From Albula goreensis (Eukaryota; Chordata; Actinopteri; Albuliformes; Albulidae), in NCBI GenBank assembly GCA_022829145.1, contig CM040745.1, positions 25,946,906-26,010,905 on the forward strand: 64,000 nt of DNA. The letters run 5' to 3'. Within the stretch, counting starts at the first letter, position 1. Each line of letters opens with the position of its first letter. This document shows, one piece after another, positions 3,401 through 40,409 of this stretch. Made by a program: the position numbers and the translations under genes. The notes beneath the pieces are model-generated. The model saw only the letters and a program-made list of their open reading frames with translations, ran no database searches and was not told the DNA's origin.

Positions 3401-4402
3401 TCAGGTGTTGCTGCTGCTCTGTTCAGCTGCGGTTTTGGAGGAGGGGACAGATGTGGACAGTTTTCCCCGGAACAGGCTCATCACTCTCTGCTTGTAGGTT
3501 TTGATGGCGAAAAAGTAGATGACAGGGTCAAGGCAGCAGTTGAGATTCATCATGGAGACAGTGACCTGCAGGGACATCTTAAAAGCCCTCAGCTCCTCAC
3601 AGGACGGCTCCCGAAGAATCCTGCGCACCATGAACTGCATGATGTTGATGTGGTAAGGGCTGAAGCACAACACAAAGGTGAAGAGGATCAGTAGGATGAT
3701 GCGGTTGGCCTTGTGGCTGCGTGTCGAGCGGCTGCTCACAGGGTTCTCCTTGGCTGCCCTAAAGAGTTTCAGGTTGATTTTGCCATAGCAGACCAAGATG
3801 ACCCCCAAGGGGATGCAAAAGCTGACTGTACAGGCCAGGAGAAGCAGGTAAGGCAGGGAAGGTGAGCCCTCCAGGTTGAAGTACTCCATACAGGCAAGCT
3901 TGTCTCCATTATGGATCAGCATCTTTTTGAATAGCAGGGGTGAATTGACCAGGGACACCAGCAGCCACACCAGAGCACAGACAGCCCGCACCACCTTCCC
4001 TTCCCTAAGGCAGCGCAGCCGCTGCGGGTGTACCATGGCCAGGTAGCGGTCCAAGCTGATGCAGGTCATGAAGCCAATGCCAGCGTATGTGTTGGCGTAG
4101 AATATTAGAGCAGTTAGCCTGCACATGATATCCCCAAACGGCCAGTCAAACCCTCGGATGTAGTAAGTGATCCTGCCTGGCAGTGCCAGAGTGAACAGGG
4201 CATCAGACAGAGCCAGGTTGACCAGATACAAGGAGGTGGAGTTGAACTTCTGTTGCTTGAGCCAGATAACATAGAGAACCAGACTGTTCCCAGAGACACT
4301 GACCAGGAACACTGTAATTAGGAAGATGGGAAATAGAATCTGGGCTGCCTCCTTCCATATGTAAACATCACAGCTCTGGTTGGGGGTCGTGGCATTCTCC
4401 AT
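3401..4402 (-). CDS. gpr183: G protein-coupled receptor 183 (EBI2-like oxysterol receptor)
   Basis: Class A seven-transmembrane receptor, 333 aa, complete in one exon. In mammals GPR183 binds 7alpha,25-dihydroxycholesterol at the plasma membrane and couples to Gi to steer B cells, T cells and dendritic cells. Seen here: two N-glycosylation sequons near the N terminus (N3, N8), GN at 38-39 in TM1, LSD at 65-67 in TM2, DRY at 118-120, the C94/C171 disulfide pair, CFSPY at 246-250 in TM6 and DPVIY at 292-296 in TM7. The phrases GFDW (84-87) and NTYAG (104-108) match GPR183. R77, Y102, Y106 and Y250 correspond to human R87, Y112, Y116 and Y260, reported as oxysterol-binding residues, all at a constant offset of ten. 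The frame stays open upstream to a splice acceptor with no earlier ATG, so I start at 4402. A TTG at 4423 is not a credible start. Teleosts carry gpr183a and gpr183b; I cannot say which this is. Other P2Y-like lipid receptors are less likely. Confidence 0.88.
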   Translation of the reverse strand: MENATTPNQSCDVYIWKEAAQILFPIFLITVFLVSVSGNSLVLYVIWLKQQKFNSTSLYLVNLALSDALFTLALPGRITYYIRGFDWPFGDIMCRLTALIFYANTYAGIGFMTCISLDRYLAMVHPQRLRCLREGKVVRAVCALVWLLVSLVNSPLLFKKMLIHNGDKLACMEYFNLEGSPSLPYLLLLACTVSFCIPLGVILVCYGKINLKLFRAAKENPVSSRSTRSHKANRIILLILFTFVLCFSPYHINIMQFMVRRILREPSCEELRAFKMSLQVTVSMMNLNCCLDPVIYFFAIKTYKQRVMSLFRGKLSTSVPSSKTAAEQSSSNT

Positions 4403-4449
4403 TCTGTTTCTCACAGAATCCAAAATGAATTCACTGGTAATATATCCTG
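4403..4449 (-). other. gpr183: 5' UTR piece and splice acceptor of the receptor gene
   Basis: On the minus strand a pyrimidine-rich stretch ending CTCTTCTACAG (AG at 4448-4447) precedes 44 bp leading to the ATG. Mammalian GPR183 has a non-coding first exon spliced to one coding exon, so this is probably the same junction. The upstream exon itself was not located. Confidence 0.5.
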
Positions 4450-4697
4450 TAGAAGAGAGGATCTTTTATTGTTTACAAAATAATTTCACTATATGATACT
4501 AATAACAACACTGTTGAATTAATAATAATTCATTTTATTGTTATACATTATTTATTCAAATATTTTTCACTCTTCTACAGCTCCTGTGTCTGAAGTATGA
4601 CACGAGAAGGTTAATTGTTTAGCACATGAATTACTTGCTGAGGACATTTCTGTACCAGCCTTTGAGCAGCGGTACATTGACTGTCAAACTGTCATAA

Positions 4698-4908
4698 TGA
4701 CTGTCATTATGAGTGGACTTTGGCTCTACACATTGGCTCTTTTTTTGCATTATGAGCGGTGGTTCCCCATTTTTTGAGGCTAATGCTGAGGTAAGTTCTG
4801 TTTTTATTTTCCCCCTCTGTTTGCTTGAAAGATGCTGTCAAGGTAACTGTAGGCTTTTCATTAGCTATTTTCATTCTGGCATTGCCTTCACAGTATATAT
4901 GTGTATAA
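4698..4908 (+). repeat. Diverged direct repeat, copy A
   Basis: This segment matches 6341-6506 in the same orientation. Shared words include TGACTGTCA at the start, GTGGTT, AATGCTGAGGTAAG, TTTTTATTTTC and CATTCTGGCATTG near the end. Copy A carries about 45 bp that copy B lacks. By eye the aligned parts agree at roughly four of five positions. It lies about 250 bp upstream of the receptor coding exon. The family is not recognised. Confidence 0.6.
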
Positions 4909-6340
4909 TATTATATTTTTGTGTCTGTTTGTAGATGACTCAAAAATGCACTGCATCAAACCACCCCCAAAAGTGTTTCAGGTTTGTTGCTCCCACAATG
5001 CTGGGAAATACAGAGAAAAAAAATGCAAGCCCACACTACTATTACTTTGTGGACCCATAACATTTTTACTGATACACACTGTGATACTGTCCGAACAATG
5101 AGACTACTGGATATTTTAAGACCGTGATGAATGGATGTATTATCTTCATATGTTTCACAATACAGATAACATAATCAATGTAAATTTTTGTACAGAATGT
5201 CAGATCATATCACACTGGTCTTCCTGTTCGGTAACATTATCTCTCTCTTTTTAAGGTTTTGATAAAGTGATAACATACTTGAACAAAAAGCTTCAACTTT
5301 CCATCAAATATGCCAAATTTTTGACATTTCATCAGTGTCCACAAGAGCTGAAACATTTGAATCAGGTCAAAGTTTTTGCTGTAGGAAAATCAGAAATAAA
5401 TGGCTCAACCCACCTATACATGTGAGCATACCTTCATAGTCTCCTTACATTCAACCAGTTTGGCAAAAACATATAAATGAAAATGCACAATGCAAATGTA
5501 GTCTATTCAATAGTGCTGTCAGTTTGTTGACTTAGTGCTTTGTTTTCCAAAGCATTCATTATGAATTGATTTAATGTGTGGGTTTCGGTACTTACTACGT
5601 CTGTTGTAAATCCTCTACAATCCGGTACACATACCCATGTTCTGTTCCATCTGGAGCTCTGAGAGAGGATGTGGTCATGAAGACTGTGTGAATCTAGCCT
5701 CACACTTTATGCATGCCTACGTCCTACCCTGAGAAGTCACATGTGGTAACTATATGAATTTCACCTATCATGAGGGCTATCAGTGTTTGAATCACTTCGT
5801 AGTGTGATAGTTTTTTACAAAATGCAAAACGTTATTGTAAAACCCCAAGTACATTCATGTTTACCAGTAAATGCTGGTTAAATGATTAACTCTGGTATTT
5901 CAAAGAACATCCCTTATCACATCAGTAATAACTTGTTTTTTTGAGATAAAGCAGTTCCTGGTCATACAGTGACTACTCATTGTTGTAAAAAAAAACACAA
6001 TTACAATCAGTCATGCTCTCTTGACAAATCAAACAGTTATCTGCATTAACAAACAAGGTATCATTATAAGGCATGCAGCAACCATGGAAACAATGACCAA
6101 ACATCATATTATTTTTGCTGTTGGCTGTTTCATAGTGGGTAACCATGTTGATAAAACTTGATATACAAACATAATGTTCAGGAGCAACTACGACATAATT
6201 ATGTATGAAATTAGGTTGACATCGCTAATGGTGAAATATATTTTATCCTTGTTAAAATTCCACCTTTCTGTCACCTTAACCAAAAGACCAATATCCTTTT
6301 TATTTAGAAAATACATCAATGTTATGTGTTAACAAAGGTA
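4909..6340. other. Intergenic DNA, nothing recognised
   Basis: AT-rich sequence between the two repeat copies. It has no exon, RNA gene or recognisable transposon. If the receptor has a non-coding first exon, it may be here or further right. Confidence 0.4.
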
Positions 6341-6506
6341 TGACTGTCAGTAGGGGTGGACCTCAGCTCTACTCATATTTCCTTTTTTCATTGTGAGTGG
6401 TGGTTGCCTTTTTTAATGTTAATGCTGAGGTAAGATCAGTTTTTATTTTCACCTTCTCTTTGTTCCTTTCATTCTGGCATTGCTTTCACAGTATGTATGT
6501 GCATTA
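6341..6506 (+). repeat. Diverged direct repeat, copy B
   Basis: Partner of 4698-4908, about 1.64 kb away. It keeps the AATGCTGAGGTAAG word and the CATTCTGGCATTG end but lacks about 45 bp from the middle. Confidence 0.6.
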
Positions 6507-18174: not shown

Positions 18175-21100
18175 TGTGGGCAGCCACCCGCGTGTGTCCT
18201 AGTGCATGCACAAGTGTGCATATGCACATTTTTGTGCGTGTGCATTCATTTGCCTGCGTGCATCTGTATGTGTGCACTTTAATACATGCACCTGCGCGTG
18301 TGTCCATTAGGTACAAGACTGAATGTCTAGGCTTAGAGGGTGTGGATGTGAAATGGCACATATAAAATAGTACAAGCTTATTGTGAACACTAACTCAGCA
18401 TTTGTTGCATGTCTGTTTTTCTGACCACAGTGTTAGGCTGGCTTTGTATTGACTGTGAACAATCTAGTGTGGTGCAGAATAGCATTACATCATACCCAAA
18501 TATCATATGTTCTTTCATGTTCTTTCTCTACTGTGGTACCCTTGCCGAGGAGTCATAAGGATACCATACAGCAGCCCTGATAACTTTATATTCTTTTACA
18601 GGATTGTGGATAACATGCCTGTGACATGGTGCTATGATGTAGAGGATGGGCAGAAGTTCTGTAATCCTGGCTTTCCCATTGGATGCTATGTGACCGAAGC
18701 GGGTCGACCCAAAGACGCCTGTGTTGTCAATGTTAGTTTTTCTGAAAGTACCTGGTAAAATGTGGGAGTAACTGCAGAAGTTCAACAATGCTCATTATTG
18801 TGGATATTGTTATATTAGTTTCCAATAAAAGCATAAAACAAGTTATGATTTTAAATTTAACGAGAGCCACAAGAGATCAAAATAGAGGTCATTTTCCTTT
18901 GGAAGTACTTCTTCGTGGTTATTATTATGTATTTTGTAGACATGTATCCAACATGATAAAAGAAAACTATAGTACAGTGGAAGTATTATTGGACCTTAGT
19001 GTGCTTAGGCCATGGTCATGTACTCACTTTCATAGAATGTGTTAATGATTACATGATCTTTATTCGTTTTTCCCACAAGTCTGAATTTAATGACAAAGAC
19101 ACCTTCTACATCTTCAACCACGTTGACATCACAATCTATTACCATGTGGTGGAGAACGAAGCTGCAGGGGCAAGACTGGTTGCAGCTAAAATGGAGCCCA
19201 AAAGGTAGTAACTCCACCCAATAATACAAACAAATAATGAGCAAAGCAATCTCACACTTTTGATAGCAGACATGATTATAAAGGATGTTTTTGTGAATTA
19301 AAATCTCTCTCCCCTCTTCAGCTACAAGCATACAAAGGCTGACAGCCCTGATTGTTCGGGTGCTCCCATGGACTTAAGCAACAAATTCTCCGGAGAGCTC
19401 AAGATTCCCTACACCTACTCCATACAATTTGCTGTAAGCATGTGCATTTTCTCTCTTGATTTTAACACCTTACAATGTCCAGCATATTGTGCACAGGTGT
19501 AATCACATCCAGTGTAAACCTGTATGCACGAGTAAGAGTTCATCCCATATGACATTGTATTATTTTAGACTTTAAGACTTTAAGAATGGGGACGGTGAGT
19601 CTAGCCCTTTAAAGTGCTGCCTTCTCTGAGCCTGTACCGCTGTGGCAGCAGCATGACCCTGAAGAGGAGCATTTCAGTCGGCAGTGTTTTCCTGTGTCTT
19701 TGCACACGCCTGCTCCAGCTGCATCTGAAGTGTTCACCTCTGTTCAGCAGATGGACTGCAAGAGAGAAAATAGATAGCAGGTGGCAGAATGTGCCTAAAT
19801 GGACAGCATATACCTGTCTGCATATTCCAAATTTACCAGAAATCATGGGACACAATGATTGGATGATTGACATAGTGAAGTTTAATTCTAAATTTGGGGA
19901 TTTGGGGTTTAATTCTAAAACTGAATGGGGATAAGCAGCACGTTTGTAAGACTGGTCATAGTGAAAGTATGGCTGTATCTGCAGGAGGATAAGAACATCC
20001 GGTGGGCCTCACGCTGGGATTATATTCTGGAGTCCATGCCTCACACCAACATCCAGTGGTTCAGGTCAGTGCCCTGAATAATAGACAAAAGGCTCATTTC
20101 CTATTGCCCTCAGTTCCTCCCTGTGACAAGTCGTCTGTACCTTTCCTTTACTGTCCAGCATCTTGAACTCCCTGGTGATCGTCCTCTTCCTCTCTGGCAT
20201 GGTGGCCATGATAATGCTGAGGACACTGCACAAAGACATTGCCCGCTACAACCAGATGGACTCAGTGGTGAGTAGTAGCCCATGCTTTCATGGTGCAGAT
20301 AATTCAGTCAGTGCCTGTGAAAGTCCTGGTTTATTCAGAAAATGACAAATGTGTATGTATACACTGGTAGGTATCAGTGTGTGGTATCGGTGTTTGTGTC
20401 ATTGAAAAACTAGATATATGTAAAACATTGTGTTCATACAGTAGACTGTTCCATGTACTATAATCACATGAGGATCGCGCATGTTCATGTACTTCAGGCA
20501 ACAGTAAGACTCGCTTCTCATGTGTCAGCCAAGACAATGAAGGGGGATGTGAACAGGAGTGTGTATTGTAAGTGGGTCGAGAGATAGGTAGGACCACACT
20601 CCATGATTCACTGTAGCCCCAGCGCCCAACAAAAGCAAGCCTCTTGTGCTGACTTGTATTGTGGGCGGATGGACGGGTAGCTTGATTCCGCCCTAACGTG
20701 TACATAACACAGGAAAACAAAGCCCTCATTCTTCAGCAGCAGCGTCCCTGGCCGGCTGTAGGAAGACACAGACTCGCTCCTTTGGCCACGGCACGGCAGC
20801 TTTCGGGGTCATCCGAGGCCGCGTGTATTAAGGATTTCATTTTCCGTGGTCTTGTTATGGTTTTGCTCTGAGAGCACGGACTAATTATTTCAGCAGCTCT
20901 TCTCCCGGCAAAACAGACTGACAGTTGGCGTTATTGGAGTGATCAGTCTCTCTCTCTCGGCCCCCCCGCGCGGCATATTTGAAGTATATTAACGGTAATT
21001 GGCGGCGTGGCTGTGGCGAAGCTCGGTAAACCTTTGTGCGGTTTTTTTCCAGGAGGACGCCCAGGAGGAATTCGGCTGGAAGCTGGTGCATGGAGACGTC

Positions 21101-24100: not shown

Positions 24101-27100
24101 TGAAATGAGAACTCATTTTGCTTAGGTGTTGATAAACTGGATGGTCAGTGGAAGGAATCAAAAGGATTATGTCGTCAACAAGATGTAGTGAAAGATGAGT
24201 TGAATAAATGTAGAGAGCCAGCTTTGAATGAATCCGGAGTGCTTATTTCATCACTCTTTTGTTGTTTCTGTAACTCAACGGCCAGTTTCATTGTCACAGA
24301 AATTAAAGATAAATGTAATGTTAAAACAGTGCTAATAAATGCAAATGCACAAATGTGCCCTGTGCATTCGTAACTGCTGCTGACATGTCACTGTCCTCTC
24401 CCATTCCAGGATCGTGTTCGCAGACTTCTTTGTGATGAATCTGATCCTGTGGGGGGAGGGCTCCTCTGCAGCCATGCCGTTTGGGACTCTGGTGGCCATT
24501 CTGGCCCTGTGGTTCTGCATATCCGTGCCCCTCACCTTCATAGGAGCTTACTTTGGCTTCAAAAAGAGTGTGAGTATTCTGGACTGGCCCTGACATTAGC
24601 CTGCCATCCTGTTACAAGTAAAATTTGTTGTATAATATAATATTTTCTTTCAATTTGGCAGCATCTGGCCTCATATCCATAAATTTAAAAAAAAATTCAA
24701 ACCATGAGGGTTGTTTAGTAAATTTGGTATCGTGGTGCTCTGTCAAATTGAAAATGAAATGTGACATGTTTCTTTTTTTTTTTTTTTTTTTTTTTACTCA
24801 AATTTAAGGGGATCGAGCACCCTGTCCGCACAAATCAGATCCCTCGGCAGATTCCGGAACAGTCCTTCTACACAAAGCCCCTCCCCGGGATTGTGATGGG
24901 AGGGATCCTGCCTTTTGGCTGCATCTTCATCCAGCTCTTCTTCATCCTCAACAGCATCTGGTCAGTGACCGGACAGTGCGGGGTGGGGGGCGTGAGCAGT
25001 GGGGGTGTGCCCCCCTCAAGGCTACAGTAATGCGCTCTGACTTAAAGAGCACCAAGGACTGTTCTCTCAACAATTACCAGCAGTTTACATTCCAATTACA
25101 ATTTTAGACCTTCAGTGTAATTTAAAAAAAAAACATCTTGTCCTTCTAAAAAGAAATTATTGCAAAAAATGTTTATTATTCAGTTACATTAAGCAAGTCA
25201 CGTGCTTTTGAATAAACTTCCTTAGTTTTGGAGACATGATATGTTGACAGTACATAACTGCAAGTTTTCTTTTCAGGTTTTAAACTCCAAAATTATTAAA
25301 ATACAAAAATGCAAAAAGGATTTCATCATCTCCACCCCCCAAGAGTGAACTTTATTGAGCATTCAGTGCATAAATAGTGTTAAAGGCCATTGTAAAGCGG
25401 ATTTAAATTTCAGATACCATATTTTTAACCAGTTAAGTTGGGTTTTTACGTAAAGTTATACTAATTCATAAACCAAGCCATTCTGTATTTTTATGTTGCA
25501 TTATAGTTTGATTTCCAGCCGTATTGGTATGAAGAATTCAAGACATTGCATTTCTTTCCATTGTGAGTTTTGTATTGCCAGTGTATAGCTGTATTGTTTA
25601 CTTTTAGTGCTTATGACTCTGAACTCACAGTAGTGATGTGACTCTATACTCTCCCACTTCAGGTCCCATCAGATGTACTACATGTTTGGGTTTCTCTTCC
25701 TGGTCTTTATCATCCTGGTGATCACATGTTCTGAGGCCACCATCCTGCTGTGTTACTTCCACCTGTGTGCAGAGGTGAGGCCCATAAGTGGATCCAAATG
25801 TGGGTGTGTACTCAAAGTCAGGTCTTCTTGGGTCTGCCTAATACTCCAGGCTGGAGTGGTTTCAGGTCCAAAATTTCTCATGTCGTTTTCAGTTACATTT
25901 CGTATCCAGGGAGAATTCCTCTCTGATCGGTATTTATACCTGAGAGACCTAGCGTTCACTGATGAACTGTGTGTCACTCACTCTGCTATACTGTGTTGTG
26001 ACCACTGCTGGTGGCATTCAGCTGAATGTGTTTTCTTTATTGAAAACACCATATTATTTTGAAGCTATTATATTTGAAGTTATTGTAGCCACGTATCAAA
26101 TGCTTTGAATCTGTTTTGGTTGTGTACATCTGGAAGACAAAGGTGACATGTCACTGAGTTGATTGACAAATGGTAAATGACAGCTGTTCAAGCTTTGCAA
26201 CTAATTTCAGTTTTCAGGCAGAGGAATAAACAACTTACTTCTCCAAATAAAGAGTCAGGTGTTTCTTTGCTGAAAGTCAGCCAAACTAAAATTCAGTTCA
26301 TTCACTTTCTCAGTTAACACTTTAATTCTAAAGAATAGATTTAACAATGAAATAGCATAATAGGAGGAATAGCTAATTGTTATGGTGGTGGGCATTGTTT
26401 TGGGGTGAATGGGGATGTTATGGACTTGGAGGGATTTAGAGAGATATTTCTCACAGCTGAGCATGTTTTAATTCTGTCATGCTCTCATTATGCACACCAT
26501 GCCTTTACTCTCCAAATTAATAGCATGAAACATGCATGTTTGCTTAAAAAGGCATGCTGTCTTTACATCCAGTTGAACTTTCGATGAATTTTAAATTTGA
26601 GTTTTAGGTGAATGAGAAGTGTAATTATCCCTGTACAGTCACTAAATCCCTGAAGTGAGAGCAGGTTATGCCATATCCCTCCCTATGAGAGCAGGTTATG
26701 CCATATCCCTCCCTATGAGAGCAGGTTATGCCATATCCCTCCCTATGAGAGCAGGTTATGCCATATCCCTCCCTATGAGAGCAGGTTATGCCATATCCCT
26801 CCCTATGAGAGCAGGTTATGCCATATCCCTCCCTATGAGAGCAGGTTATGCCATATCCCTCCCTATGAGAGCAGGTTATATCCCACGAATCATGTGTCAT
26901 TGATACAACCTAAGTTAACATAAGTGTAATACACCTTATCCTGATTGAAGGTTAGGTCTATTGAACACCTGTGTTTGGTTATTGAACTATTGATGTGTGT
27001 GCCGGGTAATCTAAATATGTAGTTTATTAATGCTGTTTTCCTTTCCTAGGACTATCACTGGCAGTGGCGCTCCTTTCTTACCAGCGGCTTCACTGCAGTG

Positions 27101-27248
27101 TACTTCCTGGTGTACGCCATACACTACTTCTTCTCCAAACTCCAAATCACCGGGCTGGCCAGCACCATCCTGTACTTCGGCTACACCATGATCATGGCTT
27201 TGATCTTTTTCCTCTTCACAGGTATGTGCCCCTATTATGAAATTAAAC

Positions 27249-27283
<35 letters not shown>

Positions 27284-30260
27284 CCTTTCGCTCCTGTCAC
27301 CCCTTGTTTCCTGGCGCAGTCTATCCCCCCACTGCTGTACGTGTGCCTGGTCCATCACCATTTGAAGTCTGCTGGGACCTGCTCATTAATCCAGTTAAAT
27401 GAAGTGAGAGAGTGGGAGGCAGGGTGGAGCAAGCAGGAGAAAAGCCCTTAAACCCATTTCCTGTGATTTGGTTAATGTGAGGCAGTGGGCAGAGTCCGCA
27501 GACGGCTGACCATTTGCTGGGTCAGTGAGTCCACCCCGTCTGCACTCAATCTAACTTTCCTCTCCCCCAGCTGCTGGGCAGTTACGCCTGATCTATACTG
27601 ACCATCCCAGCTCCTCTGTTTGTGTTCATATAATCCCAGACATTCAGAGAGTTTGCATGAGATCTGTGCCGCGCAAGAGCAAAACTAGGACGGCACAAGT
27701 ATCTTTTTAAATTATGTGTGACAATTCACATTCAAATGTTTAGAAAAAATGTACATATAAAACTAGATTTAAAAAGTATTCTGGGTTTATAAGTATGTTT
27801 TGTATCCTCATTATAAAGGTATGTCCCACAGTACACATGCTTATTTGTGGACAAAATGTAATATATTAGGTATATCCTGTACTTAACAGTAACAGAAGCA
27901 TAAAAGACTGTACTTACAATGATGCATTTACAGCTGTGTGTCAGGTGACTTGCTCAGGTTCATCCTACCCTTGTTTATGAAGTCAGTTATTTGTCTTGCT
28001 TTATGGAACAGACGTTGTGTTTCATCGCTTCCCTTCAAGTGAATATTAGCCCATTTCCCTGCATTAGCGTCAAAAATGTAGACAGCGGGGTACAAGTAGT
28101 CTTCTAACCTATTTAGCACTGACACAACTGGACTGAATGGAAAGTGCTGTCGCCTTTTGTTTTAAACAAGCAGGTTTAGTCATTCAAGTTCATTGTCAGT
28201 TATTAGCATGGAGCATTTACAGTTTAATTTGTCTTTTTATTTGGAATTAAGAATCCCTCACAAAAAATACTGAAAGCAGAATTTAAAAATGCATAAACAA
28301 AGACTGATATCTGTGTCATATGTTCTTTTAAGGCCATCACATGGCAGACTCGTCTTTTTTACTGACGTTAGAAGAGAGCATACTGCCGGCAAATGGCAAT
28401 ACCAATGTCAGTCTTGTCTTCTGCTGTACCTTTTGAGCACATGTCTGAATTGTTGCTTAACCTGACCAGTGACCCTGCCACATATGATCGCCGTCCCATG
28501 GCCCAGATCTCCTGTATCGCACAGTCCGCTCAGAGGCAAGCGATACAACCGCGTGTCAAAAAGGGGCAAGGGACGACAAGGGAAATCCACAATCCCCCCT
28601 TATCGAAAAAAAATGCGTTTGCGGGTGCTTACTCATCTGTTAAAAACGGAGCGATCTGGAAAGTTTGCAATGGGAGGGTTTTTGACGGTGCCCTGCTGCT
28701 TTGTCAGTGCAGCACATGCTCAGGGCGCTGGCATCCCCCATTGCCTTCCAGGTCATTGGTCACCCCCAGCAGGGGGCCTGCCGTGAGACTCCTGACAAGC
28801 CTCTGATTCGCAGCTGGATCTGTGGCAAGGTATCATAGTAAATGAGTCGGTAAAACATCACTGGTCTGAAGAGCGTGAAAAATTTGTCATGATATCATTT
28901 GTAATTCTCGATTCTCAAGCTGCCCACTGGAGACAAGGGCCAGGCCGAGTAACCAAGGGCTCCTTTCTGCGCCTCTCCGAGGAGCTCTCCCGATGCGCAG
29001 AGAGTGAGATTCCTGCTAATGCGAAAAGGCAACAATTAAGTATTCCTGGCTTCACGTTTTCCACGTAGTAGGTGTTGAACCCTTGATATAAGATGTTTAT
29101 GACACATTGTCCCGTTTTACATTTACATTCGCTGTTCATTACTCCTGAGCAATTATGATGTCTGGTATTTCCGTCATCTTGGAGACCTCTGGAAGTTTCC
29201 TTCTTTTGCCAGTTCTCCAAAACATCAAATCCCGCAATGCTGTGAATTGTCCTGATGTAAGGATCTCTTCTGGCAGACCTCAGATAGTCAAAACTCTAGT
29301 AAGGAGGCATTTGACCCTGTTAAGTCATGAACATATTCATTTATAAAAATAGACTATTTAGTGCAGTCCTTTGGTCATGAACTCTGACACAGTATTGAGA
29401 TATGCATTTGCAGGTGGAGAATTTTCAAATGGTGCCACTCTTAATATTGAACAGAATATTTCAGAATTCATAAACTCAAGTGGAATCTGAATCCTCAATG
29501 TCAAGTCCCCCTTTTTTTTTTTTTTTTTTTTTTTAAAAAAAAGAAAGCTTGTTAATTGTTATTTGAAGGAAATGAGTACAATGCCCTAGTGTGTTTGTAA
29601 AAAGAAAAGAAATGCATATTGAAGTTCTTTTCTTTCTGTAAGAGTCAAGCTTTGATTCCAGAGATACAACTATACACTGAAACTATTTTTAACAATGTTG
29701 GGAATATAATATAAAAAAGTAATAATTTGTCACCTTCATGTGTGTTAATATTTATAAGGAGACATGAAAATGTAAACTGCAGCAGCAAGATGTTTGACTC
29801 TAGTATACTTACCACTTATTAGGCTAACACATTTGGGTACTGCTTTTGTTTGTATTTTTGGCACGTAAAGGCCATCTTATGAGAGGGTTCTGAAGTGTGG
29901 TCATTAATACCTGTATAATGCTCTTGATAGTTACTGCACAAAACAGTGGTAAAATGGGCCTTTCTGCAAACTATTTTACTCTTCCTTACTATTATAATCA
30001 CTGCCTTTTATGCATCCATAGAAACTCAGTTTTCCCAATTTACTCAAAAATATTTGTAATATTTGGAAAATGATATAAAATGCTTTTTAAATAAGGCTGG
30101 TATTTACTTGCTCACACATTGAAGTCATTTTACCACAGTTGTTTCATTTTAATAAAATGAGATTTAATTCATTTCTCTTTTTTTAAACTCAGGAACAATT
30201 GGGTTCTTTGCCTGTTTCTGGTTTGTAACCAAGATCTACAGCGTGGTGAAAGTAGACTGA
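10444..30260 (+). CDS. tm9sf2: Transmembrane 9 superfamily member 2 (17 coding exons, spliced)
   Basis: Complete nonaspanin (EMP70 family) gene; the span given is ATG to stop. Joined exons are 10444-10599, 12112-12179, 14523-14616, 16147-16274, 18602-18731, 19080-19204, 19322-19433, 19985-20064, 20159-20267, 21053-21185, 22118-22237, 23712-23769, 24410-24569, 24809-24960, 25663-25774, 27050-27221 and 30193-30260. They total 1977 bp and encode 658 aa (human TM9SF2 is 663). Visible in order: a signal peptide (about 1-25), the mature start [12 protein letters not shown], a lumenal domain to about 297, then nine hydrophobic segments from about 299 to near the C terminus. The tail ends KIYSVVKVD, with a KXD motif (COPI/COPII-dependent Golgi retention in this family) and a YXXPhi-type YSVV. 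TM9SF2 is a Golgi/endosomal protein needed for heparan sulfate (NDST1 localisation) and glycosphingolipid synthesis. All introns are GT-AG and no frame break was seen. The region between SFC and EIELF (about residues 38-53) differs most from human. Confidence 0.97.
10600..12111 (+). other. tm9sf2: TM9SF2 intron 1
   Basis: 1.5 kb intron. It has many scattered copies of AGCTAGC-like words (for example near 10340 just upstream and 11100-11125) but no exon or recognised transposon. Confidence 0.8.
12112..12179 (+). CDS. tm9sf2: TM9SF2 coding exon 2
   Basis: Encodes residues 53-74 plus two bases of codon 75, including [20 protein letters not shown]. The acceptor is TTCTCTCCAAG and the donor GTAAGT. 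The junction codon gives Ala before FDFC. Confidence 0.95.
12180..14522 (+). other. tm9sf2: TM9SF2 intron 2
   Basis: 2.3 kb AT-rich intron. A 159-codon open frame on the minus strand (13906-14385) shows no recognisable domain and is taken as chance. No repeat family was assigned. Confidence 0.8.
14523..14616 (+). CDS. tm9sf2: TM9SF2 coding exon 3
   Basis: Encodes residues 75-106, including FDFC and [18 protein letters not shown]. This is one of the most conserved lumenal segments of the family. The acceptor is CTTTGTAG and the donor GTATGT, ending in phase 0. Confidence 0.96.
14617..16146 (+). other. tm9sf2: TM9SF2 intron 3
   Basis: 1.5 kb intron. It holds a minus-strand SINE (15556-15780). 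The stretch around 14980-15150 is less AT-rich and could be regulatory, but no specific motif supports this. Confidence 0.8.
15556..15780 (-). mobile_element. tRNA-headed SINE with L2-type 3' tail
   Basis: On the minus strand the tRNA-like head starts near 15780. An A-box-like TAGCCTAGGGG is followed by the B box GGTTCAAGTCC (15716-15726). The body contains the fish-typical TTGAGCAAGGCCCTTAACCCC-like stretch (about 15660-15680). The tail is the L2-type end CGCTTTGGATAAAAG, then AGCTAAATG, and finishes in ATGTAATGT units near 15556-15575. This arrangement is known for fish SINEs mobilised by L2-clade LINEs. Clear target-site duplications were not seen. The family name is not assigned. Confidence 0.85.
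16147..16274 (+). CDS. tm9sf2: TM9SF2 coding exon 4
   Basis: Encodes residues 107-148 plus two bases of W149: [17 protein letters not shown], then [16 protein letters not shown]. The acceptor is CTTTGCAG and the donor GTGAGT. Confidence 0.95.
16672..16688 (+). promoter_or_regulatory. CTCF-like motif
   Basis: CCACTAGAGGGTGCCCT resembles the CTCF core CCASYAGRKGGCRS at most positions. This is motif similarity only, and such words also occur by chance and in fish transposons. Confidence 0.35.
17273..17484. repeat. GATA/GATG tetranucleotide array
   Basis: About 210 bp of mixed GATA and GATG units with a few imperfect units near the right end (ACAAGTAGATAG). Long open frames on both strands here are artefacts of the repeat. 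Confidence 0.95.
17680..18045. promoter_or_regulatory. CpG-dense block inside TM9SF2 intron 4
   Basis: About 32 CpG dinucleotides fall within some 350 bp, with words such as GCGGCCGC, CCGCGG, GCGCGT and CCGGCG, in an otherwise AT-rich, CpG-poor intron. That is the look of a CpG island, so it could be an internal promoter, an enhancer or a transferred GC-rich segment. Open frames cross it on both strands but show no recognisable domain. Confidence 0.5.
18048..18178. repeat. (TG)n microsatellite with internal (TCTG)n
   Basis: About 130 bp of nearly pure TG dinucleotides interrupted by four or five TCTG units near 18086-18107. It abuts the CpG-dense block. A looser TG/CA-rich stretch follows to about 18300. 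Confidence 0.95.
18602..18731 (+). CDS. tm9sf2: TM9SF2 coding exon 5
   Basis: Encodes residues 149-192: [20 protein letters not shown], then [14 protein letters not shown] and KDACVVN. The acceptor is TTTTACAG and the donor GTTAGT, ending in phase 0. This start makes a TGG tryptophan codon across the exon 4 junction. Confidence 0.96.
19080..19204 (+). CDS. tm9sf2: TM9SF2 coding exon 6
   Basis: Encodes residues 193-233 plus two bases of S234: [19 protein letters not shown], then [12 protein letters not shown]. The acceptor is TCCCACAAG and the donor GTAGTA. The preceding intron 5 is 348 bp and holds nothing recognised. Confidence 0.96.
19322..19433 (+). CDS. tm9sf2: TM9SF2 coding exon 7
   Basis: Encodes the end of S234 to residue 271: [20 protein letters not shown], then [14 protein letters not shown]. 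The acceptor is CTCTTCAG and the donor GTAAGC. Intron 6 before it is only 117 bp. Confidence 0.95.
19434..19984 (+). other. tm9sf2: TM9SF2 intron 7
   Basis: 551 bp. The stretch 19600-19760 is GC-richer and open on both strands but matches no TM9SF2 exon; nothing else was recognised. Confidence 0.75.
19985..20064 (+). CDS. tm9sf2: TM9SF2 coding exon 8
   Basis: Encodes residues 272-297 plus two bases of S298: [20 protein letters not shown], then TNIQWF. This is the strongly conserved end of the lumenal domain. The acceptor is CTGCAG and the donor GTCAGT. Confidence 0.97.
20159..20267 (+). CDS. tm9sf2: TM9SF2 coding exon 9
   Basis: Encodes S298 to V334. It contains the first membrane segment ([19 protein letters not shown]) and the cytosolic [13 protein letters not shown]. 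The acceptor is CTGTCCAG and the donor GTGAGT. Intron 8 before it is only 94 bp. Confidence 0.97.
20268..21052 (+). other. tm9sf2: TM9SF2 intron 9
   Basis: 785 bp. The right half (about 20740-21045) is GC- and CpG-richer than most introns here and contains homeodomain-type ATTA/TAAT words. It could be a conserved noncoding element; this is inference from composition only. Confidence 0.6.
21053..21185 (+). CDS. tm9sf2: TM9SF2 coding exon 10
   Basis: Encodes residues 335-378 plus one base of F379: [20 protein letters not shown], then the second membrane segment ([20 protein letters not shown]). The acceptor is TTTTTTCCAG and the donor GTAAGC. Confidence 0.97.
21186..22117 (+). other. tm9sf2: TM9SF2 intron 10
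   Basis: 932 bp. It contains a non-autonomous hAT-like element with an internal poly-A tract. Nothing else was recognised. Confidence 0.8.
21591..21945 (+). mobile_element. Non-autonomous hAT-like element (MITE)
   Basis: The left end TGTTCTCAACTGG, followed by GACCCAAAAGTGGGTCGC, is the start typical of a common fish hAT group. The right end CCAGTTGAGAAGAGCTGCTG is its inverted counterpart, so the ends form imperfect terminal inverted repeats. It has no transposase frame and carries a 22-nt poly-A tract (21668-21689). An 8-bp target duplication is not clear, so the outer limits are approximate. Confidence 0.65.
22118..22237 (+). CDS. tm9sf2: TM9SF2 coding exon 11
   Basis: Encodes F379 to the first base of S419: [20 protein letters not shown], then [19 protein letters not shown] (third membrane segment). 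The acceptor is GTCCATCAG and the donor GTAAGT. Confidence 0.97.
22238..23711 (+). other. tm9sf2: TM9SF2 intron 11
   Basis: 1.47 kb. The first part (22260-22540) is GC-rich with several CpG-containing words (CCGGCGCCG, GGCCGCGCC) and may be a conserved or regulatory block. The rest is AT-rich and holds nothing recognised. Confidence 0.6.
23712..23769 (+). CDS. tm9sf2: TM9SF2 coding exon 12
   Basis: The shortest exon (58 bp), encoding the end of S419 to G438: [19 protein letters not shown]. The acceptor is TTTAACAG and the donor GTGAGT. Confidence 0.96.
23770..24409 (+). other. tm9sf2: TM9SF2 intron 12
   Basis: 640 bp, AT-rich; nothing recognised. Confidence 0.75.
24410..24569 (+). CDS. tm9sf2: TM9SF2 coding exon 13
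   Basis: Encodes G438 to S491: [20 protein letters not shown], then the hydrophobic [20 protein letters not shown] and YFGFKKS. The acceptor is CCATTCCAG and the donor GTGAGT. Confidence 0.97.
24773..24795. repeat. Poly-T tract before TM9SF2 exon 14
   Basis: 23 consecutive T residues ending 13 nt before the exon 14 acceptor AG. It probably acts as an unusually long polypyrimidine tract. Confidence 0.9.
24809..24960 (+). CDS. tm9sf2: TM9SF2 coding exon 14
   Basis: Encodes residues 492-541 plus two bases of W542: [20 protein letters not shown], then [18 protein letters not shown] and [13 protein letters not shown]. The acceptor is AATTTAAG after a poly-T run and the donor GTCAGT. Confidence 0.97.
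24961..25662 (+). other. tm9sf2: TM9SF2 intron 14
   Basis: 702 bp, AT-rich after a short GC-rich start; nothing recognised. Confidence 0.75.
25663..25774 (+). CDS. tm9sf2: TM9SF2 coding exon 15
   Basis: Encodes W542 to E579: [20 protein letters not shown], then [17 protein letters not shown]. The acceptor is CCACTTCAG and the donor GTGAGG. Confidence 0.97.
25775..27049 (+). other. tm9sf2: TM9SF2 intron 15
   Basis: 1.28 kb. It contains a 30-bp minisatellite (26656-26879). The rest is AT-rich with nothing recognised. Confidence 0.8.
26656..26879. repeat. 30-bp minisatellite, 7.5 identical copies
   Basis: Units start at 26656, 26686, 26716, 26746, 26776, 26806 and 26836, with a 14-bp partial unit at 26866. 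Each unit begins TGAGAGCAGG and ends CCCTCCCTA, and no differences were seen between copies. Both strands stay open across it because 30 is a multiple of three; this is not a gene. Confidence 0.97.
27050..27221 (+). CDS. tm9sf2: TM9SF2 coding exon 16
   Basis: Encodes residues 580-636 plus one base of G637: [20 protein letters not shown], then [15 protein letters not shown] and [20 protein letters not shown] (two late membrane segments). The acceptor is TTTCCTAG and the donor GTATGT. Confidence 0.97.
27251..27283. repeat. Poly-T tract (33 T)
   Basis: Uninterrupted T run 29 nt after the exon 16 donor. It is not followed by an acceptor. It may be the A-tail of an unrecognised minus-strand retroelement or a slippage product. 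Confidence 0.9.
29512..29534. repeat. Poly-T tract followed by A-run
   Basis: 23 T directly followed by eight A, within intron 16. No element boundary was recognised. Confidence 0.9.
30193..30260 (+). CDS. tm9sf2: TM9SF2 coding exon 17 and stop
   Basis: Encodes the end of G637 to D658 and [24 protein letters not shown]. It completes the last hydrophobic segment and the cytosolic tail with the KXD and YSVV motifs. The acceptor is AAACTCAG. Confidence 0.97.
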
Positions 30261-35840: not shown

Positions 35841-37255
35841 GTAAGTCTGACTTTCTGCTCATATTTTGATCTTAGACCCGAGTTAGTAATTCGTTATTGC
35901 AATGAGCCGGCCTTTTACGTATGAGACTATTCCAGCTGCACACTGACACGGCACGACATTTTTTGGAAAAGGGTCGTTTGTTTATGACATTGAGATGTAA
36001 AAGCTGTTTGTCACGGAAATTTGAAAACATTGTAATTAGGTAACAGCTAGTTGATTGTCTCGGTGAATTGCTGTTGTAAAAGCTGTTGAATCCACTAATA
36101 CCCAGGCATCATACCCTGGAGGGGTTTTTCCAACTTGTGTATTATTCCGTAAACAATGCCACGGTTTGCCACCACAACTACCAATACTGAACGTAATACG
36201 TCTAAGCATGGAGTGTTTTTTGTGACAGGTGTGTTTTCTGTTATAGGGAGGGATGCACTGTGCCCACAACGTCTCCTCTGATCCCAAGGGATGTAGATTT
36301 AACAATCTAACGTTAGCTGACTCCACAGTCATCCTAAAAAAGCGAATCCAAACAGAAACGGCACACCTCGGTGACTGAGACAAACGGGTTGTATGTGTAG
36401 CAAGGTTCACCTGGACTTTGACTATGGGCCAACTCAAATGTTACATGACCCTAAAGCGGTGCATGCACGATAAAATGATCATAGTAACGTATATTAAGAC
36501 TTGCAAAGACGTGAAGCCTGACATAAGGAGATGGTTCACATGCAAACATTGTCTCAAGTGTTTGTTATTTTTTTAAATTTTATTAATCATAAGCACAACT
36601 TCAGCCCTCTTCGGTGTATTGTTAGGGAGTAAGGTGCGTGATACAGTTTGAAAATGAATTCAGCTGACTGATGTCTGACATGTTGAACTGTGAAAATCAG
36701 GTGCAAGCTGTCCACAAATTGATTTATTTAACATCTGTTTGACCAGGATGTTTCATAGGGTATAAAATCACTTTTTCAAGAAAGACCTGGCCAAAACAGT
36801 TACAGTGCATACAGGCTTAAAATAAAATTACACATATTATATCATATAGTATACAATAACCAGAGCCATGCCTAACGGACACAGTTGCGTAAACACAGCA
36901 GAGGCCCATTACCAAACTAATTTAGAAAATTCTGCAGCATGTGCCATACCTGAGTAAAAAATGTTTGTTTCATTATCAGCAAAGATTGACACAGACAGCC
37001 TTAGGAAGCCTCTGACAGATAAGACTGATAGTATACATGTGTGATTCTTATTAGCCAAATTATTACAAACACGTTAAATTTGGCCATGAAATAAATTACT
37101 AAATATGAAATACCTCTTACAATAAGGGTTACCTGTAATGAACCTTTTGACTCTCTAAAATTACCTATTGAAAATTAAACTTTCAGGTAATGCTTTTGAA
37201 TAAGCAAAGAGGATTTTCTACATTTTTAAGGCAAAGAAAGTATCACGTTGCTAGT

Positions 37256-37280
37256 GTTTTTTTTTTTGTTTTTTTTTTTT
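37256..37280. repeat. Poly-T tract at left edge of tandem duplication
   Basis: T run interrupted by a single G, directly before copy 1. It corresponds to the longer T tracts after each copy. Confidence 0.9.
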
Positions 37281-38364
37281 AATCTTGTACAATATTATGC
37301 AATGTAATATTAAGCAAGGCTGCCAGTAATTTGCTGGTTACTCTTAGTGGTCCTCTTGGTAAAATGAATTGCATATTAACTTAAGGTTTTATTCAGAAGT
37401 ATTTATAAATACATTTTTTTTAAAAAAATTATATATCAGAAAGCTATAACGACCTAATTTTTTAACATCACCAAAATTGTGCATATCATTAATAGTAAAC
37501 TTGAAAACAAAACTTGGAGGCAGAATTCTGATCGGCTCAGAAACTATAACAAAAAAGCAAATTTAGTTGTTTTCATATTAATTTATGTTTAAAACTGCTA
37601 ATTAATTGCAACACACAGCAGTCAGGCTTGAATCAGCCAGTACTGTACGTTGTTAGTTTTATACATCTGTACTTAATTTTGTTTGGAGAAACTTAATGAG
37701 AAACTTCAAACAGTTTAGATGTCAATTACAACGAAAGCATGGTTTTAAGGTTCCAGTAATCTGTCCATGTTGGTCATCAGAACATGGTGCCAGGTGGTTT
37801 TAATTCAAGGCAGACAAATTTCCACAGGCACAATAGACATGGCCTCACTAATCTACAGTGTGAAGTGACTGTCATAATGTTCCTCATCATTTTTGCAGTC
37901 TGTGTGTGAGCGTGAGAGTGTCATATTTAAAGCCTGCGCGTAACACGGAGTGTTCCTGAAGACAGTACCAGAGGGCAGAATGTTAAGCCAATTAATGGAA
38001 CCAGTTCCCGATCCTCCGAGCAAAGACAGATTTATACAATCCCAGGTGTTTGTTTTAATAAGCAAGATGTTGTTCAGTAGCCCATTTTTTCCTCATCTAC
38101 AACAAGCCTTGGCAAAGCGATGTGCTTTCATTCTCATGTTTCCACCCCATAAATGATCTTGGTGTACTGGAACAATTTGGGCATCATTACTAGTTTGTGT
38201 GTGGCAAATTCTCGCATCTTCCGTTGGAAATAATCTGCTTCACAAGGGTTTAGTAGTGTTCCTGTAAGATGGCAGGAAACAAAGCACATTGGCGTAGGTC
38301 AGTGAGCACATGCTTAATTGGAGTCCATTCAGAAAGCTGGATGAGGAATGTGTGTGCGCGCTTG
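37281..38364. repeat. 1.08 kb tandem duplication, copy 1
   Basis: Matches 38389-39472 base for base except for a few differences: one extra A in an A-run near 37424-37430, one extra G near 37535, a G/A change near 37769 and TT in place of GCTT near 38141. Net length is equal and the offset is 1108 bp throughout. It begins AATCTTGTACAATATTATGC and ends TGTGTGCGCGCTTG. Confidence 0.95.
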
Positions 38365-38388
38365 TTTTTTTTTTTTTTTTTTTTTTTT
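38365..38388. repeat. Poly-T tract between the duplicated copies
   Basis: 24 T residues joining copy 1 to copy 2. Confidence 0.95.
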
Positions 38389-39471
38389 AATCTTGTACAA
38401 TATTATGCAATGTAATATTAAGCAAGGCTGCCAGTAATTTGCTGGTTACTCTTAGTGGTCCTCTTGGTAAAATGAATTGCATATTAACTTAAGGTTTTAT
38501 TCAGAAGTATTTATAAATACATTTTTTTTAAAAAATTATATATCAGAAAGCTATAACGACCTAATTTTTTAACATCACCAAAATTGTGCATATCATTAAT
38601 AGTAAACTTGAAAACAAAACTTGGAGGCAGAATTCTGATCGCTCAGAAACTATAACAAAAAAGCAAATTTAGTTGTTTTCATATTAATTTATGTTTAAAA
38701 CTGCTAATTAATTGCAACACACAGCAGTCAGGCTTGAATCAGCCAGTACTGTACGTTGTTAGTTTTATACATCTGTACTTAATTTTGTTTGGAGAAACTT
38801 AATGAGAAACTTCAAACAGTTTAGATGTCAATTACAACGAAAGCATGGTTTTAAGGTTCCAGTAATCTGTCCATATTGGTCATCAGAACATGGTGCCAGG
38901 TGGTTTTAATTCAAGGCAGACAAATTTCCACAGGCACAATAGACATGGCCTCACTAATCTACAGTGTGAAGTGACTGTCATAATGTTCCTCATCATTTTT
39001 GCAGTCTGTGTGTGAGCGTGAGAGTGTCATATTTAAAGCCTGCGCGTAACACGGAGTGTTCCTGAAGACAGTACCAGAGGGCAGAATGTTAAGCCAATTA
39101 ATGGAACCAGTTCCCGATCCTCCGAGCAAAGACAGATTTATACAATCCCAGGTGTTTGTTTTAATAAGCAAGATGTTGTTCAGTAGCCCATTTTTTCCTC
39201 ATCTACAACAAGCCTTGGCAAAGCGATGTGCTTTCATTCTCATGTGCTTCCACCCCATAAATGATCTTGGTGTACTGGAACAATTTGGGCATCATTACTA
39301 GTTTGTGTGTGGCAAATTCTCGCATCTTCCGTTGGAAATAATCTGCTTCACAAGGGTTTAGTAGTGTTCCTGTAAGATGGCAGGAAACAAAGCACATTGG
39401 CGTAGGTCAGTGAGCACATGCTTAATTGGAGTCCATTCAGAAAGCTGGATGAGGAATGTGTGTGCGCGCTT

Positions 39472-39472
<1 letters not shown>
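38389..39472. repeat. 1.08 kb tandem duplication, copy 2
   Basis: Near-identical to 37281-38364. It contains the same short open frames as copy 1, none with a recognisable domain. The unit has no LINE, SINE or DNA-transposon hallmark that I can see. Confidence 0.95.

Positions 39473-39515
<43 letters not shown>
39473..39515. repeat. Poly-T tract at right edge of tandem duplication
   Basis: 43 consecutive T residues, the longest homopolymer in the window. Unique sequence resumes at ATAGAGAGCC. Confidence 0.95.
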
Positions 39516-39518
<3 letters not shown>

Positions 39519-40010
39519 GAGAGCCTTAGGCCTGTGCTTTCACAACAGCCTGCAGTATGTCACAAACACCTCCATGTCAGAGATGCAGCAGCATCCTGCA
39601 GGAAAAATTGGCTGCTGGTATGAAGTCGACAAGTGATGAAAGTAGCCTGGAGGTTGTCAATTACAAAGCCAAGGCCTGGATCTGATAAGTTAATGGTCAG
39701 TTTCCTCTTTTTAGGCCTGCCAAAGCTTTACAGCACAGGTTATAAAATCTGAAGTGTAATGTGTTCTTATAACATTTTCATTTAAGAGCAACTATATAAA
39801 ACCTTGCAGACACTTGGCAGTGAGGGCCAGCCATTTCAAAGTAGCATTTTGCAGTAATCAGAGGTGAATTTCCGAATTCTTCTCCTGCCAAAAAATAGCT
39901 GACTCCCGTGCAAACTTTAATCCTGGTGGTCTCTAATGCTTGCACTGTTTCTCAAGGCTGAATTTAAATGCAATTACATGTGTGATCTATCCAGCATTGA
40001 CACACATTGA

Positions 40011-40032
40011 TGGTGGGGACATGTCCCCACCA
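40011..40032. repeat. Perfect 22-bp palindrome with p53-type half-site
   Basis: Two 11-bp arms are exact reverse complements around the centre of GGGGACATGTCCCC. The core GGACATGTCC fits the p53-family half-site RRRCWWGYYY. About 50 bp downstream the word GTCCCCAGCACTTTT repeats the flanking GTCCCCACCACTTTT. This may be the end of an unrecognised DNA transposon rather than a functional site. Confidence 0.6.
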
Positions 40033-40409
40033 CTTTTTGACAGCCTTTAGTTTGTTGAACCAGTCGTTGTCCCCAGCACTTTTCAAAACAAACTGATGCC
40101 CATGCTCTCCAGTCACAAAAAAAATGTGCGTACAAGTTGTGTGTGAAATATGCAGTCTGTTTTTATTTATCAGGATAATGATTATGGTTTTAAAAAATTT
40201 AACAAGTTGATGCTCACCATTGAATCATTAAAGTAGCAAGATGTATAATAAGTGCTGTTTTATTCATTTATTATCTGACTGTTTCTAGGGAAATGTTTGA
40301 TCAATCTACAAAATGGAAGAGCTCCAGTTATTTTAGAGATGTAGATGAGGAAATTACTCTTAGCTCTCATTGTCCAGAACTTTTCATAAAGGATCAGTGA
40401 TTTGTAGAT

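Follow-up and report, generated by a model that had tools for sequence, protein, structure and literature searches.

A near-identical tandem pair of non-coding units framed by T tracts in Albula goreensis and its possible origins

Anatomy of the tandem pair

The sequence analyzed here (the window) is a stretch of 64,000 nucleotides (nt) from the fish Albula goreensis, corresponding to positions 25946906-26010905 of contig CM040745.1 (hereafter C5) in the assembly GCA_022829145.1, which comprises 931,924,363 bases in 208 contigs. It contains two near-identical units which are arranged head-to-tail, separated by a tract of T and framed by two others (Table 1; positions without a contig name are those of the window). 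The pair lies about 10 kb past the last recognized exon of a gene that we take to be TM9SF2 and about 94-103 kb from two frames of the ZIC zinc-finger type. No coding exons were recognized around the duplication.

The original prediction for this DNA, made from its letters, had described two 1084-bp (base pair) units with about four small changes, two of them single-base indels, and this was borne out by direct reading and by alignment. Each unit is 1,084 nt long and 1,081 of the 1,086 columns of their alignment are identical (99.54%). The differences are a run of seven A in unit A (37422-37428) which counts six in unit B (38530-38535), a GG (37534-37535) which is a single G in unit B (38641), a G/A substitution (37769 in unit A and 38875 in unit B) and a 2-nt GC absent from unit A (between 38139 and 38140) and present in unit B (39246-39247). 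In total there are three indels, two of 1 nt and one of 2 nt, to one substitution.

The order of the parts is T11-G-T12, unit, T24, unit, T43. Three poly-T tracts had been predicted to frame the units, and both their order and the T43 are confirmed; nevertheless, the left tract is not pure T, as it is interrupted by one G. It reads TG-T11-G-T12-AATC and the right tract reads TG-T43-ATAG, with a TG edge common to both. The duplicated block measures 1,108 bp, and its two ends and the junction all fall in homopolymers of the same letter (with the one G of the left tract).

Such a tandem pair is far beyond chance. It is the only direct repeat of at least 500 bp and at least 85% identity in a self-BLAST of the window and when 284 kb of C5 including the window (C5:25846906-26130905) were compared with themselves by megablast (matches of at least 100 bp and at least 85% identity); the scope of the self-comparison for such duplications was these 284 kb of C5 and 30 kb of a second contig, C21. 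Tandem Repeats Finder, run with a longest period of 500, does not list the pair. There is no N within the 64-kb window, and so none between the copies.

Table 1 Features of the duplicated locus, in window positions
Feature	Position	Strand	Remarks
Left T tract T11-G-T12, 24 nt, preceded by TG	37257-37280	+	
Unit A (1,084 nt), adjoining the unique left flank	37281-38364	+	Alignment; flank single-copy
Conserved non-coding stretch of unit A	37637-37873	+	74% identical to C21:12182031-12182265
Middle tract T24, preceded by TG	38365-38388	+	Probable hybrid, with a 5' part from the right tract and a 3' part from the left tract; junction probably within roughly the last 12 T
Unit B (1,084 nt), adjoining the right flank	38389-39472	+	Alignment; collinear with C21 through the right flank
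Conserved non-coding stretch of unit B	38743-38979	+	Same C21 partner as in unit A (C21:12182031-12182265)
Right T tract T43, preceded by TG	39473-39515	+	C21 counterpart without such a tract
Right-flank stretch	39521-39652	+	Matches C21 beside the single unit copy; anchors unit B in its native context

Copy number and the collinear segment on C21

A search of the genome with positions 37300-38300, in which very common words are skipped, returned three matches (3/3 candidates scored), namely the two tandem copies and one 235-bp match on C21 at 74% identity. Neither a third high-identity copy nor an alternative contig with a single unit appeared in this search. The unit is not a dispersed repeat, and a dispersed mobile element is rejected on the genome copy number. 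The left flank (36800-37254) is single-copy in its own genome. For the right flank, one match is the query itself over its whole length, and the other 39 among the best 40 of 413 candidates all cover a repeat of about 95 bp. This dispersed repeat, with a 22-nt palindrome at 40011-40032, lies at 40009-40104 of the window and has at least 39 further copies at 85-96% identity.

The comparison of 30 kb of C21 (12165001-12195000) with positions 10434-60237 of the window gave 34 BLAST rows, all of them (34/34) collinear and of one orientation, with identities of up to 94%. The two regions correspond to a duplicated chromosome segment, most simply derived from a whole-genome duplication. The stretches conserved between them extend well past the recognized exons. 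In this alignment both copies of the unit map to one place, and the C21 segment, which is collinear with the window and belongs to the same genome, has the conserved stretch of the unit once. Since this relative is single, one copy was probably the older state and two copies the derived one. The gap from the conserved unit stretch to the match of the right flank (39521-39652) measures 581 nt on C21 and 542 nt after unit B (T43 included); since the right flank follows at a similar distance on C21, unit B stands in its native right context. There is no long T tract at the C21 counterpart of T43, so the T tract on the right probably grew later. For the left flank, no C21 match was detected near the unit, and the comparison informs on the right side only. 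The site of the G/A difference is not conserved on C21, so the direction of this change is not polarized.

Origin of the tandem pair

The explanation that we favor, and consider rather probable, is a genuine recent tandem duplication of the 1,108-bp non-coding block, with two T tracts as the sites of exchange or template switching; the weight given to this explanation and that given below to an artifact anchored in the T tracts are judgements and not computed values. It is favored because of the T tracts at both ends, the length of the T24 tract, the absence of N, the single substitution per kb and the existence of precedents. Also in its favor are the lack of further close copies and of alternative contigs in the genome search, the left flank being single-copy and the single C21 counterpart. 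A/T runs of at least 11 nt make up 512 of the 284,000 bases of C5 (0.18%), and the chance that both ends of a block lie in such runs, if they were placed independently of the sequence, is about 3e-6. Since both block ends are within T tracts and these are rare, the event probably used them. Before it, a single unit would have been bordered by the left 24-nt T-rich tract (TG-T11-G-T12) and by a right T tract (TG-Tn). If two strands or chromatids paired out of register, the right tract on one may have come to lie against the left tract on the other, the two tracts being matched from their common TG edge. A switch after the G, inside the last 12 T, would then have given the product unit, TG-T24, unit, in which the first unit still follows the original left tract and the second still precedes the original right tract. 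The middle tract counts 24 T, as the left tract would if its G were a T, and this matches an in-register exchange 3' of that G; free-register pairing gives a 24-nt middle tract in 13 of 572 combinations. In this scheme the arrangement of the parts, the four differences and the single C21 copy are observed, whereas the presence of the duplication in the animal, the pairing register and the recent date are inferred.

Precedents are found in malaria parasites. In Plasmodium vivax, five of seven tandem-duplication breakpoint pairs are A/T homopolymers of at least 11 nt (PMC9127374), and in P. falciparum the sequenced breakpoints of the gch1 amplicons (4/5 amplicons) are in microsatellites or monomeric tracts (PMC2570623). 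These duplications share with the present one a head-to-tail arrangement and breakpoints that lie in A/T homopolymers or other simple tracts of non-coding DNA. They differ in having support from reads or PCR and in carrying genes, the gch1 amplicons measuring 1.8 to over 11 kb and showing evidence of selection, whereas the Albula locus is non-coding fish DNA known here from one assembly alone.

Several points speak against a genuine duplication. The agreement of the T24 tract with in-register exchange was calculated after its length had been seen and homopolymers both mutate fast and assemble unreliably, which makes it moderate support at best. Indels account for three of the four differences between the units, and the probability of at least three in four is 0.004-0.05, assuming that indels represent 10-25% of small differences; this excess suggests that at least one copy is unpolished sequence. 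Moreover, a misjoin anchored in the T tracts predicts the identical order of parts, and the argument from identity has no force if the false duplication is of the homotype kind, for which read errors and not haplotype divergence are required (PMC9516828). Ambiguous read mapping in near-identical copies could leave a real as well as a false pair unpolished, and the indel excess does not decide between them.

The chief alternative is an assembly artifact in which confusion between the two poly-T runs led to the misplacement of a contig end, a local graph path or a gap-filling read, so that one locus or its two alleles came to be written twice. We regard it as a serious possibility, though not the likelier outcome. 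The original prediction was right to caution that an artifact also fits, and the 3:1 excess of indels points in this direction, since indel-rich differences resemble uncorrected sequence. Five long open frames in the surrounding C5 (three like G-protein-coupled receptors (GPCRs) and two ZIC-like; 1,737 codons) are unbroken, so that the indels of the units stand out, although these frames were chosen as long and unbroken, which weakens the comparison; they come from six open frames of at least 250 codons, one of which was excluded from the count as antisense to a GPCR-like frame. Most false duplications in four assemblies are shorter than 2,000 bp (PMC2864568), incorrect gap filling sometimes joins false copies, and false copies are richer in erroneous k-mers (PMC9516828). 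The scaffold may contain joins, as a 63-base N run, the only one in the 284 kb, is found about 36 kb rightward (C5:26022722-26022784). This run is either an assembly gap or a withheld stretch. Nevertheless, the resolution of T43, of a 57-nt AC run and of a perfect array of 7.5 copies of a 30-bp repeat, together with 932 Mb in 208 contigs, suggests long reads able to span 2.3 kb, a technology that we infer from these features. The left tract offers only 12 uninterrupted T beside the unit, a short anchor for software, and no N separates the copies. The false duplications of Ko et al. are most often separated by gaps (PMC9516828); yet a gap is a frequent and not a required hallmark, and gap filling could have erased one.

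Unequal exchange between poly-T runs and two haplotypes of one locus kept side by side had originally been proposed without a choice between them. The T-tract ends and the 24-nt middle tract favor the exchange, and the haplotype split is less favored, as the identity is above that of most false haplotype duplications and there is no N. With its indels counted, the identity of 99.54% is at the upper edge of the false duplications due to haplotype splitting (median 98.1%, few above 99.5%; PMC2864568). The pair resembles the false duplications of vertebrate assemblies, whether heterotype or homotype, in that these are adjacent near-identical copies, mostly below 2 kb, with small differences (PMC9516828, PMC2864568); it differs from them by the lack of a gap, by its position at the edge of the range of Kelley and Salzberg and by the T tracts at both ends. 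If two diverged haplotypes had been placed side by side from ordinary overlapping contig ends, a kind of overlap between adjacent contigs that these authors describe (PMC2864568), the T tracts would be uninvolved. This is very improbable, as independent ends would both have to fall in A/T runs of at least 11 nt (about 3e-6) and a divergence of one substitution per kb is small for two haplotypes that failed to merge. Even less credible is the double insertion of an element, mobile or retroposed, that ends in a poly-A tail. On the minus strand an A tract does follow each unit, but the genome search found only the two copies and one collinear relative, the C21 counterpart has the same order and the same right flank, and there is no RNA family match: Rfam gave none at the gathering score in the window, nor at E 0.1 in 37000-39800. 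ARAGORN, in a bacterial-code run, found no tRNA. Unit A had no match among phage records, and a 28-nt sequence taken at the left edge of the unit was not found exactly in viral contigs.

Coming back to a genuine duplication by exchange between T tracts, a broader version can be imagined in which long T tracts, markedly commoner than A tracts on the plus strand here, repeatedly undergo in-register unequal exchange in this fish. Copy number at the locus would in that case be polymorphic, with a conserved stretch doubled near the presumed ZIC5 and ZIC2 genes and the reciprocal deletion also segregating, a proposal that we find quite unlikely. Plus-strand runs of at least 11 nt number 21 for T and nine for A in the 284 kb of C5, four of the T runs belonging to the duplication locus, and eight for T and none for A in the 30 kb of the C21 counterpart.

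No function is indicated for the duplication beyond the doubling of a moderately conserved non-coding stretch. The event is of an ordinary kind, either a tandem duplication bounded by homopolymers or an error that is itself ordinary, and neither outcome would be surprising. If real, it would provide a clean vertebrate example, at base level, of a tandem duplication produced by poly-T tracts; the published cases found are those of malaria parasites. If false, it would serve as a minor warning that assembly can let through duplications of about 1 kb that are bounded by homopolymers.

Genomic setting

On the minus strand, positions 3404-4465 of the window encode a rhodopsin-family receptor whose best match is GPR183 (PDB match). 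Frames with an EMP70 domain according to Pfam start at 24.8, 25.6 and 27.05 kb on the plus strand (three of the four frames tested matched EMP70), and we take them to be TM9SF2 exons, a presumptive name that draws on this Pfam family. The frame at 27050-27448 has no PDB match but matches EMP70 in Pfam. The frame at 18483-18755, which had been judged TM9SF2 by eye, has no Pfam match and was rejected.

In vertebrates the gene order is TM9SF2-CLYBL-ZIC5-ZIC2. Its presence here, together with the duplicated segment on C21, points to a bony fish. A CLYBL-like exon is presumably present at C5:26047293, on the basis of a motif and of a Pfam match that is sub-threshold only (18.2 bits for a cut-off of 28.4). 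No CLYBL exons were recognized within 28-64 kb of the window with short motifs, which is no proof of absence. Frames of the ZIC zinc-finger type occur at about C5:26.080 Mb (minus strand) and 26.087 Mb (plus strand); the second, which is the one scanned against Pfam, is zf_ZIC there. The names ZIC5 and ZIC2 are our assumption and draw on this Pfam match.

The region contains a few other repeats. The perfect 30-bp minisatellite (7.5 copies) is located at 26656-26879, between the frames taken as TM9SF2 exons. Positions 4697-4906 and 6340-6504 contain an older direct repeat, which is broken into two pieces with identities of 79% and 92%. Outside the window, a 192-bp direct repeat is present at C5:25908477-25908668 and C5:25910116-25910307, its copies being 96.9% identical and 1,639 bp apart.
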